DNA of 64,000 nt from Acidobacteriota bacterium. Its GTDB lineage: Bacteria; Acidobacteriota; Vicinamibacteria; Vicinamibacterales; UBA2999. The notes below the pieces were generated by a model. It ran no database searches. It had not been told where the DNA came from and saw nothing but the letters and a program-made list of their open reading frames with translations. Below, in pieces: positions 5,379 to 49,334 of the stretch (position 1 is the stretch's first letter; each line of letters begins with the position of its first letter). The stretch covers positions 1 to 64,000 of the forward strand of contig QHWQ01000021.1 in the NCBI GenBank assembly GCA_003222635.1. The letters run 5' to 3'. Made by a program: the position numbers and the translations under genes.

Positions 5379-6409
5379 ATGCGCATCATGATCTCGTGCG
5401 GCGAGCCGTCCGGTGATCTGTACGCCGGAGCGCTGGCCGCCGAGATCCTTCGCCGCGATTCGTCCGCCGACATCTTCGGCTTCGGCGGTCAGCGTCTCGC
5501 ATCGGCGGGTGCCCGGCTCATTGGCGACTTCCAGGGCATCTCGGTCACAGGGCTGACGGAAGCGATCCGCGTGCTGCCCCGATCGTTCGCGATGCTGCGG
5601 CGCCTGACCGGCGTCGCACGCGAGCGAAGGCCGGACGTCTTCGTCGCGATCGACTTTCCCGACTTCAACTTCCGCCTGATGGCAGCGCTCCATCGCCTCG
5701 GCATTCCGGTGGTCTACTACATCAGCCCGCAGCTCTGGGCGTGGCGCGCCGGCCGCATGCAGACGATGAAGCGGTTCGTCAGCAGGGTGCTGGTGATCTT
5801 TCCGTTCGAAGAGGAGCTGTATCGAAGGGAAGGCGTGCCCGTGGAATGGCGGCGTCGCTGCCGCTGATACGCGCGCGCGTGCCTGATGTCCAGTTCGTCG
5901 TCGCCGCCGCGCCGAATCTGGCGGACGAACTATTCGAGCCGTTGGTCCGCCTCGAGGCGGACACTACCGAATCGATGCGAACCGAAACGGTAGCGTCCGG
6001 CTTCAGCCGGACCATCGTGTTGCGCGAACAGACGGACGACGTGCTGGCGGCGTCAGATGTCGTGATCACCGCATCCGGCACCGCGACCGTGCAGGCGGCT
6101 CTGCACGAGCGCCCGATGGTCGTCGTCTACAAGCTCTCGCCGCTGACCTATCGCCTTGGAAAGCCGTTTGTACGGGTGGATACCTACGCGATGGCGAACC
6201 TCGTGGCCGGCAAGCGCGTTGTGCCCGAGTTGATCCAGGAAGGGTTCACTGCAGAACGGGTTGCGGAGGAGGCGATTCGTTTCCTGACGGATGGAGAGCT
6301 CTACACGCGCACGCGCGACGAGCTCCGCCTCGTGCGGGAGAAGCTCGGCGAGCCCGGCGCCAGCGGTCGCGCTGCTGACGCCGTGCTTGCCGCAGCATCT
6401 CGCCGTTAA
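5379..6409 (+). pseudogene. lpxB: Lipid-A-disaccharide synthase, broken into two frames near 5845
   Basis: N-part MRIMISCGEPSGDLYAGALAAEIL...YYISPQLWAWRAGR; C-part LPLIRARVPDVQFVVA...VVITASGTATVQAALHERPMVVVYKLSPLTY. Frame change plus missing mid region. Confidence 0.85.
5944..6013. repeat. REP-like palindrome pair in opposite orientation inside lpxB
   Basis: GGTCCGCCTCGAGGCGGACACTACC (5944-5968) and GGTAGCGTCCGGCTTCAGCCGGACC (5989-6013). Confidence 0.85.
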
Positions 6410-16101: not shown

Positions 16102-16202
16102 GGTCCGGCTAAAGCCGGACCCTACCGACGATCCCCAGCCGGATGCAGACCGCGGCGTGGATCCGGAATGGAACACCGGTAGCGTCCGCCTTCAGCGGAC
16201 CT
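16102..16202. repeat. Intergenic REP-like palindrome pair
   Basis: GGTCCGGCTAAAGCCGGACCCTACC (16102-16126) and GGTAGCGTCCGCCTTCAGCGGACCT (16178-16202). Confidence 0.85.
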
Positions 16203-28675: not shown

Positions 28676-29774
28676 GCGGCGGAGGGGCGGGTGGAAGCAG
28701 CAGATCCGCTTGCGGAATAGGCTTCGGCCCCGACGGATACCTCGATTGATAGACCGGTGCGTCCGGCAGCCGCGGCATATCCGCGCTCACGAACTGATCG
28801 ACCGGCATCACCCAGAGTCCGCCGAGCAGCACCACCACCAGCAGCGCCACCGCCATCAACACAAGACGCCGCCGGCTTGGCGCCGCGGCTGTCCCCGTTG
28901 AGGCTTTTGCGGCTTTCCGCTTCGGGCGGCCGGTCGCCGGAAGACGCAATCCCAGACTCGCTGCCCCCTCCTCGACGATCGCCGGCGTCAGCCGGTTCAC
29001 ACGCATCTGCGCCGCCTGCATCAGCGAGCGATCGCAGAGCAGGTTGATGATGCGCGGCACGCCGCCCGTGAAGGCGTGCACGAGATCGAGCGCGGCGGGT
29101 TCGAAGGTGACCGCCGTCGATCCGCGCGCGACCCACAGCCGATGCGCGATGTAGGCCTCGACCTCCTCGCGGTTGAGCGGCTTGAGCGTGGCGCGAATCG
29201 AGATGCGCTGATCGAGCTGCCGCATCTCCACCGCCGCGAGCATGTCGAGCAGGTTCAGCTGGCCGACGAGCACGATTTGCAGCAGCTTCGATTCGTTCGT
29301 CTCCAGGTTGGAGACGATGCGGATCTGCTCGAGCACCTGCGGCGAGAGGTGCTGCGCCTCGTCGATGATCAGCACCGCGCTGCCGTGAATCGGCATCAGC
29401 GAGAGCAGGAACTCGTGCAGCGTGCTGATGAGCGCGTGCTTGCTCGCGGTGGCGATGCGTCCGCTGCGCACGCCCTCGCGCGAGACGACGCCGAAGTCGA
29501 GCAGCACTTCGCGCAGCAGCTCTTCGACCGACAGAAACGGATTCAGAATCAGCGACGTGAAGACGCTCGCGTCGAGCTGCTCGAGAAGCGCCCGGCAGCT
29601 CGTCGTCTTGCCGGTGCCGATGTCGCCCGTGAGGACGATGAAACCTTCCTTGCGGCGGATGGCCTGCTGCAGGAGGGTGATCGCTTCGTCGTGCGATTCG
29701 CTGCGGTAGAGGAACCGCGGATCAGGTGTCAGCGTGAACGGCGGTTGTACGAAGCCGAAATACTGCTCGTACAT
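28605..29774 (-). CDS. ExeA/GspA-like AAA ATPase with C-terminal TM
   Basis: MYEQYFGFVQPPFTLTPDPRFLYRSESHDEAITLLQQAIRRKEGFIVLTGDIGTGKTTSCRALLEQL, AVLIIDEAQHLSPQVLEQIR. Confidence 0.92.
   Translation of the reverse strand: MYEQYFGFVQPPFTLTPDPRFLYRSESHDEAITLLQQAIRRKEGFIVLTGDIGTGKTTSCRALLEQLDASVFTSLILNPFLSVEELLREVLLDFGVVSREGVRSGRIATASKHALISTLHEFLLSLMPIHGSAVLIIDEAQHLSPQVLEQIRIVSNLETNESKLLQIVLVGQLNLLDMLAAVEMRQLDQRISIRATLKPLNREEVEAYIAHRLWVARGSTAVTFEPAALDLVHAFTGGVPRIINLLCDRSLMQAAQMRVNRLTPAIVEEGAASLGLRLPATGRPKRKAAKASTGTAAAPSRRRLVLMAVALLVVVLLGGLWVMPVDQFVSADMPRLPDAPVYQSRYPSGPKPIPQADLLLPPAPPPPSASSSAPAPPAGAPAPRARPAP
29352..29430 (+). repeat. 79-bp exact direct repeat, copy 1 (inside ExeA-like gene)
   Basis: CTGCGCCTCGTCGATGATCAGCACCGCGCTGCCGTGAATCGGCATCAGCGAGAGCAGGAACTCGTGCAGCGTGCTGATG, identical to 30645-30723. 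Confidence 0.95.
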
Positions 29775-29852: not shown

Positions 29853-30889
29853 ATGATCGCGCTGCTGATTCTGCTGTCGCTGCTCGCGCTTCCGCATCCG
29901 GCCATGGCGCAGGCCCGCGCACAGGCGCCGCCATCCCGTCCGCCGGCGACGCGCCCGCAGCCCGCGCGGCCGCCTGCGCCCGCGGATACCTATTTCGTCA
30001 GCACGCTGTCCGCGGCGGAAATCCAGAACAAGCAGGCCGTGATCGAGACGCCGATGGGCACCATCGTGCTCGACTTGCTCGCCGATGCCGCGCCGAATCA
30101 TGTCGCGCACTTCATCACGCGCGCCCGCGAGGGTGCGTATGACGGCACGATCTTTCATCGCGTGATCCCGAACGGGATCATCCAGGGAGGCGATCCGCTC
30201 TCCACAGATCCCGCGCAAAGTGCACGCTACGGCACAGGTGGCATGCGGGAGCTGCGCTTCGAACGGAACAGCGAGCAGATGTCGCGCGGCGCGGTGGCGG
30301 CCACGCTCGCGCCGGGGATGCCCGACAGCGGCGGCTCGCAGTTCTTCATCTGCATCTTCGACCAGCTGCCGCTCACAGGTCAGTACACCGTGTTCGCCCG
30401 CGTGGCCGAAGGGCTGAACGTCGCGCAGAAGATCTCGCAGGTGGAGGCCGACAACACCGTGCCGAAGCAGCGCGTCGCCATGACGAAGGTGACCATTCGC
30501 GACAAGCCAGCGGCTGGTCCCGAGCCGTTCGCGACGGAAACGGCGGAGGAGCTGTCGAAGTATCGCGCGGTGCTCGAGACGTCGATCGGGAACATCACCT
30601 TCCAGTTCTTCCCGGACAAGGCGCCGAATCACGTGCGGAACTTCCTGCGCCTCGTCGATGATCAGCACCGCGCTGCCGTGAATCGGCATCAGCGAGAGCA
30701 GGAACTCGTGCAGCGTGCTGATGCATCGTCCTCGCGCGTACGCCGGTGCTCGACGGGAAATACACGGCTTTCGGCAAGGTGGTGGAGGGCATGGAGGTCG
30801 TCGAAAAGATCGAAGCCGTTACCGTCAACGGCGAGACCCCCGTCAAGCGCGTCGAGTTGAAGAAAGTAGCCGTAACGAAGATCCCGTGA
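29853..30889 (+). pseudogene. Double-domain cyclophilin-type peptidylprolyl isomerase; second domain disrupted and carrying a foreign 79-bp segment
   Basis: First domain FHRVIPNGIIQGGDP...SGGSQFFICIFDQLPLTGQYTVFARV intact; second starts AVLETSIGNITFQFFPDKAPNHVRNFL, is interrupted, and resumes in another frame as IVLARTPVLDGKYTAFGKVVEGMEVVEKIEAV. Confidence 0.85.
30645..30723 (+). repeat. 79-bp exact direct repeat, copy 2 (inside PPIase gene)
   Basis: Identical to 29352-29430. Confidence 0.95.
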
Positions 30890-30924
30890 ATTGCGGACGT
30901 CCAGCCCCGGAGTAAGGGTAATGC

Positions 30925-31237
30925 TCGGTTTCGTTCGGTACTGCTTGCTGGAACGTCCCTCGACGAGCAGGTGGACGTGATCGGGCATGAAGCAGTACGC
31001 CAGAACCGCAAACGAACAGTCGCGTGCGGCGCGCGAAATCTGCTCCAGCACAAGGGCGACGGCGTCGGCGGTGATGAAGACCGGCGAACGCTCAAACGTG
31101 CAGAACGTCAAGAAATATGCGTGGAAGCCGATGTAATCGAAGACGCGAAGATGCTGCGGCTGCCGCGGTCGCACGCCAGGGACGGCGCAATTCGCGTTCC
31201 ACGTGGCGTCCGGCTTTAGCCGGACGTCCGCCATCAT
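30925..31237 (-). pseudogene. Truncated REP-associated Y1 (HUH) transposase, RAYT/IS200-like remnant
   Basis: FHAYFLTFCTFERSPVFITADAVALVLEQISRAARDCSFAVLAYCFMPDHVHLLVEG; HUH motif HVH present, downstream Tyr region missing. Confidence 0.8.
31205..31232. repeat. REP-like palindrome
   Basis: GGCGTCCGGCTTTAGCCGGACGTCCGCC. Confidence 0.75.
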
Positions 31238-47648: not shown

Positions 47649-49334
47649 TTGTCCTTTCCCGATCTCCGCTCCTTCATTGATCGCCTCCAGCGTGACAACG
47701 ACATCGTCACGGTGGAGGCGCCGGTCGATCGGAATCTCGAAGTCGCTGAAATCCATCGCCGCGTGATCGCCGCCGGCGGTCCCGCGCTGATGTTCACCAA
47801 TGTCCGGCTAAAGCCGGACGCTACCGCGACTTCTCCTTTTCGTCTCGTCACGAACTTGTTCGGCACGGCGCGGCGAGCGGAGCTGGCGTTCGGCGAGCGG
47901 CCTCTGCGACTGATACGCCGCGTCGTGGAGCTGGCGGAAACGCTGCTGCCGCCGACGCCGGGCAAGCTGTGGAGCGCGCGCGACGTCGGCAAGGAGCTGC
48001 TGAGGGTCGGCACGCGCAACGTGCAGACGGGTCCTGTCGTCGAGAACGTCACGTTCGATGTGGATCTGAGTCGTCTGCCCGTCATCACCTGCTGGCCGGA
48101 GGATGGCGGGCCGTTCATCACGCTGCCGCTCGTCTACACGCAGCATCCCGATCGACCATGCCACAACCTTGGCATGTACCGGATGCACGTCTACGACAGC
48201 CGCACGACCGGCATGCACTGGCAGATTGGCAAGGGCGGCGGCTTTCACTACGCCGCGGCCGAAGCGCGCGGCGCGACGCTGCCAGTCACGGTGTTTCTCG
48301 GAGGACCTCCGGCGCTGATCCTCTCGGCGATCGCGCCGCTGCCCGAGAACGTGCCGGAGCTGATGCTCGCCTCGCTCATCGCGGGCGAGCGACTGCCGCA
48401 GGTGCAGGGTTACGGACCGCATCCGTTGATGGCGAACGCGGAGTTCGCGCTGATGGGCGAGGTGCCGCCGCGGGTGCGAAAGCCGGAGGGGCCCTTCGGC
48501 GATCACTACGGCTACTACTCGCTGCAGCACGATTACCCGGTATTCGAGGTGCGCCGGGTTGCGCATCGAAACGACGCAATCTATCCGGCGACCGTCGTCG
48601 GCAAGCCCCGGCAGGAAGACTTCTACATCGGCGATCTGCTGCAGGAGCTGCTGTCGCCGCTGTTTCCGCTGGTGATGCCGGCCGTCGAGCGTCTCTGGTC
48701 GTACGGCGAGACCGGTTATCACTCGCTGGCGGCGGCGGTCGTCAAGCAGCGCTACGGCCGCGAGGCGATGGCGAGCGCGTTCCGCATCCTCGGCGAAGGG
48801 CAGCTCTCGCTGACGAAGTTCCTGCTGCTGACCGATCGCCGCGTCGATCTGCGCAACTTCAAGGCGACGCTCGAGCATCTGCTCGCGCGGACGCATCCGG
48901 AAACCGATCTCTACGTGTTCTCGAATCTGTCGATGGACACGCTCGACTACACGGGTCCGGCCGTGAATCAGGGATCCAAAGGCGTGTGGCTGGGGCTCGG
49001 CGATGCCGTGCGCGAGCTGCCGCGTGCATTCACGGCCGCCGAGCTGCGTGGTGTCACGGATGTGCGTGTCTTCTGCGCCGGCTGTCTCGTCGTCGGCGTC
49101 CCCTCGCGCGCGTCGGATCCTGACGCGCCCGCGCGCATTGCCGGCGACGCCGCGTTCCGCGAGTGGCCGTTGATCGTGCTGACCGAAGAACCGATGCGCG
49201 CCGCCGCGAGCTCGATGAACTTCCTGTGGACGACCTTCACGGCGACCGCGCGCACCGTGACCCAGCGATGGAAGGAGTATTTCCCGGACCGCAACGTGGA
49301 GATGGGCGATTCGATCAAGGCCAGCCTCGATTGA
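47649..49334 (+). CDS. ubiD: UbiD family decarboxylase
   Basis: FPDLRSFIDRLQRDNDIVTVEAPVDRNLEVAEIHRR, VTNLFGTARRAELAFG, EGPFGDHYGYYSLQHDYPVFEV. Confidence 0.93.
   Translation: MSFPDLRSFIDRLQRDNDIVTVEAPVDRNLEVAEIHRRVIAAGGPALMFTNVRLKPDATATSPFRLVTNLFGTARRAELAFGERPLRLIRRVVELAETLLPPTPGKLWSARDVGKELLRVGTRNVQTGPVVENVTFDVDLSRLPVITCWPEDGGPFITLPLVYTQHPDRPCHNLGMYRMHVYDSRTTGMHWQIGKGGGFHYAAAEARGATLPVTVFLGGPPALILSAIAPLPENVPELMLASLIAGERLPQVQGYGPHPLMANAEFALMGEVPPRVRKPEGPFGDHYGYYSLQHDYPVFEVRRVAHRNDAIYPATVVGKPRQEDFYIGDLLQELLSPLFPLVMPAVERLWSYGETGYHSLAAAVVKQRYGREAMASAFRILGEGQLSLTKFLLLTDRRVDLRNFKATLEHLLARTHPETDLYVFSNLSMDTLDYTGPAVNQGSKGVWLGLGDAVRELPRAFTAAELRGVTDVRVFCAGCLVVGVPSRASDPDAPARIAGDAAFREWPLIVLTEEPMRAAASSMNFLWTTFTATARTVTQRWKEYFPDRNVEMGDSIKASLD
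47801..47825. repeat. REP-like palindrome inside ubiD
   Basis: TGTCCGGCTAAAGCCGGACGCTACC. Confidence 0.85.

Follow-up and report, generated by a model that had tools for sequence, protein, structure and literature searches.

A tail-to-tail pair of GTAG-tagged REP units within lpxB of a Vicinamibacterales genome, and in-frame copies of the same repeat in other genes

Intragenic REPs and the pair in lpxB

It is already known that REPs can lie within genes. Intragenic GTAG-tagged REPs were catalogued in 2013 as single units, as dimers coding 20-30 residues and as heterodimers, with tail-to-tail (TT) orientation (PMC3733652), and their hosts include Thauera, 'O. terrae', Thioalkalivibrio and others (PMC3733652). 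Rickettsia palindromic elements (Ogata 2000, 2002) and other cases have been reviewed (PMC10969869); RPE-4 and RPE-6 bear a CGTC tag, and no transposase is known for them (PMC3733652). Here we analyze a stretch of 64,000 nucleotides (the window) from an assembly of the order Vicinamibacterales that totals 5.63 Mb in 428 contigs and is 88% complete. At positions 5944-6013, within lpxB, the window carries two GTAG-tagged REP units of 25 bp each, arranged tail to tail:

5944-5968, minus strand: REP unit 1 of the GTCCGCCT-stem type, with its GTAG tag pointing inward, coding VRLEADTT
5969-5988, no strand assigned: 20-bp spacer between the tail-to-tail units, coding the ESMRTET part
5989-6013, plus strand: REP unit 2 of the GTCCGGCT-stem type, with its GTAG tag pointing inward, coding VASGFSRT

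Unit 1 as read on the minus strand is GGTAGTGTCCGCCTCGAGGCGGACC and unit 2 as read on the plus strand is GGTAGCGTCCGGCTTCAGCCGGACC; the general unit, GGTAGNGTCCG(G/C)CTNNAG(G/C)CGGACC, consists of GGTAGN and an 18-bp palindrome, so that GTAG stands at one end as in the GTAG REP superfamily. The units are in opposite orientation with GGTAG tags facing over the spacer, and the two opposed palindromic modules with a 20-bp joint described in the earlier note were thus both recovered. Because the tag is GTAG, the lpxB units do not share the CGTC tag of RPE-4 and RPE-6. The full module, allowing up to three mismatches, occurs five times in the window compared with 0.01 expected by chance, and a chance palindrome is ruled out on this expectation.

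The lpxB site and its second lesion

Around 40 LpxB loci of the order were aligned, and the LpxB of the window has VRLEADTTESMRTETVASGFSRT where most others show none or few residues. The insert is missing from the same-genus orthologue L151 and from ~35 other LpxB orthologues, an outcome that rules out native LpxB residues as its origin and that answers the homolog comparison proposed at the outset, since orthologues from the same genus, family and order lack the 23 residues. On the DNA level L151 reads ...CTG CCC ATC... and the window reads ...TTG (69 bp) ATC.... The insertion is read from this empty site in an orthologue, with no target-site duplication or second strain showing the event. 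The features of the gene are as follows:

5945-6013, plus strand: insertion of 69 bp, or 23 codons, at a site occupied by a single CCC codon in the same-genus orthologue L151
5379-5867, plus strand: lpxB 5′ fragment, Pfam LpxB 1-157, reaching a stop past the deletion
5741-6409, plus strand: ORF with the lpxB 3′ fragment, Pfam LpxB 245-360, and the REP pair in frame
5847-5848, plus strand: approximate junction of a ~148-bp deletion, with the GSRxxE region lost and the frame shifted

We consider it very probable that a tail-to-tail GTAG-REP heterodimer, of a class mobilised by RAYTs, inserted into the lpxB coding sequence and was tolerated there, and that in-gene copies of the family are in-frame survivors. 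As a non-autonomous mobile repeat it would have entered lpxB in an ancestor of the strain, its stop-free frame (VRLxADTT...VxSGFSRT) adding 22-23 residues to LpxB, and such an insertion may have been tolerated because LpxB varies in length at that place anyway.

The proposal that a BIME-type unit had invaded a conserved gene while keeping the frame is supported, but the same lpxB carries an unrelated frame-shifting deletion at 5847/5848 that is absent from the earlier note. Relative to L151 the deletion amounts to 49 codons plus 1 base and lies ~97 bp upstream of the REP pair. The lpxB gene is not intact as assembled, its 5′ and 3′ parts being in different frames, and the in-frame translation reported previously is accurate for the conserved 3′ part of LpxB, in whose frame the pair is open, but not for the 5′ part. 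Given this deletion, it cannot be demonstrated that keeping the frame matters for this copy of lpxB, where retention of the frame may be a one-in-three accident. Compared with L151, dN is 0.105 and dS 0.83 in the 5′ part; the corresponding values are 0.112 and 0.61 for the piece from the deletion to the REP pair, and 0.123 and 1.21 after the pair. All three pieces thus have a dN/dS of 0.10-0.18, and therefore either the deletion is recent, selection having acted until not long ago, or it is an assembly error. The REP pair probably inserted earlier than the deletion arose.

An alternative explanation could be that lpxB had become a pseudogene before the pair entered it and that the in-frame state of the pair is a coincidence. 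The upstream frameshift is consistent with this, as is the finding of no other lpxB in the assembly, but the low dN/dS throughout suggests decay that is recent or not real, and the element is in frame in some 20 other genes as well, such that we regard prior decay of the gene as unlikely. A second possibility, compatible with insertion of a REP pair into a coding lpxB and to which we would give a little less than an even chance, is that the deletion is an assembly error and the real gene is intact save for the REP pair. Low dN/dS on both sides of the deletion fits such an error, and the same contig has an exact 79-bp repeat near 30.65 kb, at a junction where genes are cut short and which may be a mis-join; lipid A synthesis, moreover, is expected in this bacterial group. 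Against it, the sequence at the lpxB junction shares no word of at least 16 bases with other places in the fetched parts of the genome, only some 14-mers.

Copies of the repeat and their reading frames

When up to one mismatch is allowed, 231 places on many contigs of the assembly match the 18-bp palindrome, compared with 3 in the reversed control. GTAG-tagged copies number ~180 among those listed with none in controls, and tagged G-stem and C-stem patterns have dozens of exact copies each with zero control matches, so the genome search suggested in the earlier note returned ~200 further copies of the module, others among them in frame in conserved genes. Elements take the form of 25-bp units, single or in 54-85-bp pairs. 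The family is both dispersed in high copy number and often paired in opposition, with 53 inverted pairs among 139 elements; a G-stem and a C-stem with tags inward make up all 48 of 48 inverted pairs, or 52 of 53 with looser matching. Among 59 genomes searched from the same family and order, 28 contain the palindrome, in 1 to 589 copies. Within the window, further copies and a RAYT remnant were located:

16102-16201: intergenic REP pair, units at 16102-16126 (minus strand) and 16178-16201 (plus strand), the second one stem base short
47801-47825, minus strand: single REP unit in ubiD, in frame, coding VRLKPDAT within the UbiD_N domain
31202-31226, plus strand: REP unit whose tag has degraded and which overlaps the RAYT remnant at its 5′ end
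30689-31237, minus strand: decayed RAYT (Y1_Tnp), Pfam 7-61 of 121, C-terminal half gone

The first two had been noticed from the sequence beforehand; the pair at 16.1 kb is real, its shortened second unit notwithstanding, and the ubiD module is present as described. A search of the assembly gave four Y1_Tnp genes, and on contig 394 there is an intact-looking RAYT with a divergent REP ~0.9 kb off, while an intact RAYT flanked by exactly this REP was not found in the assembly at its 88% completeness. The Y1_Tnp genes near REPs fit the RAYT model, by which RAYTs may have mobilised the family. An exact 79-bp direct repeat is present at 29352-29430 and 30645-30723 of the window, and its second copy lies at the point of truncation of both the RAYT gene and a PPIase-like gene; a mis-join or rearrangement at this second copy is possible.

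To follow reading frames, 106 stretches around listed REPs were fetched (~0.75 Mb with the window), a codon model was trained on long ORFs, and each REP flank was decoded separately. By these heuristic codon-based calls, which make in-frame counts approximate, 28 of 139 elements are open and lie between two flanks that code in a common frame with them, and ~23 of the 28 are well supported by long coding flanks or a homology check. The repeat is thus present in frame across many unrelated coding genes, as is characteristic of Rickettsia palindromic elements. Carriers identified with Pfam and PDB include threonine synthase, prephenate dehydrogenase, Lhr helicase, thiolase, GlgE, polyphosphate kinase, a Ser/Thr kinase (in the activation segment), an FAD-binding reductase, Ada, MutL (a degenerate unit) and UbiD. 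Compared with relatives or solved structures the net gain is 17-18 residues in Lhr, 18 in a PMT-type transferase, 17 in an HI0933-type protein and ~10 in thiolase, and a LytTR regulator also has a net insertion relative to orthologues. In TyrA and ThrC the REP unit occupies a loop of variable length with no clear net gain over orthologues, and simple insertion is therefore not proven for these two.

A clear mid-gene copy breaking a frame was not found among the 139 elements. Elements with same-strand flanks in different frames, or with a stop, are nearly all near a gene end and the start of the next gene. Eight doubtful candidates for frame-breakers were either gene boundaries, confirmed with Pfam for ruvC/ruvA and for an ABC ATPase/permease, or had homology too slight to judge. 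Insertion that is blind to frame and not followed by selection would leave at most one third of copies in frame, and even 20 in frame of 23 has a probability of 1.6e-7. Dimer lengths leaving a remainder of 2 modulo 3 are seen in 0 of 13 in-gene dimers versus 15 of 40 others (Fisher p = 0.011), although this bias is not independent evidence because an open frame helped to define the in-gene class. The simplest reading is that disrupted genes were lost through selection, an argument also made in PMC3733652. Insertions that close a frame would have been purged, and in-gene copies would therefore be the in-frame survivors; on our best reading the family persists in genes only where the frame stays open, mostly in variable loops.

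Most REP copies are intergenic or just past stop codons, and the 70 nt of the lpxB pair are predicted to fold into a single hairpin (-39.7 kcal/mol, z = -5.7). Both observations could be taken to mean that the element is kept as a control element, for a role of its hairpin in mRNA or DNA, with coding incidental. We think this quite improbable, as the lpxB site is not conserved in relatives and there is thus no sign of a gene-specific function. An Rfam search of the window gave no match to a known RNA family. At gene ends, REPs at L133 3000-3054 and in L083, L100 and L119 overlap the 3′ ends of genes, whose final codons or stop codon they provide, and one REP gives RuvC a C-terminal extension.

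Relatives, shared loops and described repeats

For replication, 20 stretches were taken from three other genomes of the order, belonging to other families, and 5 of 37 elements there are in frame within genes. One of these genomes (G039) has the same REP type in frame in threonine synthase (L199, 432-479), in another family and in the same loop as in the threonine synthase (L108) of the window's genome. In lpxB of another genus (G027; L150, 2546-2623) a different palindrome, GCCGGGACCTCGGTCCCG, occupies the same LpxB loop, likewise in frame, and it has 15 forward matches in its genome, whereas the control gives none forward and 1 reverse. The LpxB of G015 has yet another insert, with only 4 near copies in its genome, and accordingly lends little to the idea of shared loops. 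Tentatively, and with the odds somewhat against it, unrelated palindromic families may have landed repeatedly in the same permissive loops, in LpxB of 2-3 genera and in threonine synthase of two families. If this is true, core enzymes would regularly gain new loop sequence through REP invasion, which would then be no rare accident.

No paper on this REP family in this order was found in the open-licence literature, and what is new is protein-coding REPs in a lineage for which no earlier report was found, together with an orthologue that shows the empty site, a tally across the genome and replication in relatives. The natural insertions of 8-25 residues in LpxB, thiolase, Lhr, GlgE and UbiD mark loops that tolerate foreign sequence. 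They also carry a warning: VRLKADTT, VVSGFSRT and similar peptides, when met in proteins from this group, derive from the repeat.

The earlier note drew an analogy to Rickettsia palindromic elements, and the likeness extends to a palindromic repeat in frame in unrelated conserved genes, many of them here; other RPEs, however, are ~150 bp in length, in contrast to the 25-bp GTAG units and their pairs, and the GTAG-REP superfamily is the nearer precedent (PMC3733652). Like REPIN/BIME of Pseudomonas and E. coli (PMC3116915, PMC2817692), the family has inverted REP pairs that form one long hairpin and a putative RAYT (TnpA-REP) partner, but those are described as extragenic (PMC3116915, PMC2817692), whereas here about 1/6 to 1/5 of elements are inside genes. 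With the GTAG-tagged REP superfamily it shares GTAG beside a short GC stem and TT heterodimers with tags inside (PMC3733652), intragenic single units and dimers coding 20-30 residues (PMC3733652), and hits to DNA repair and recombination genes (PMC3733652), which here are MutL, Lhr, Ada and the end of RuvC. It differs from the described GTAG-tagged REPs in its stem, GTCCGSCTNNAGSCGGAC, and in its occurrence in the order Vicinamibacterales.
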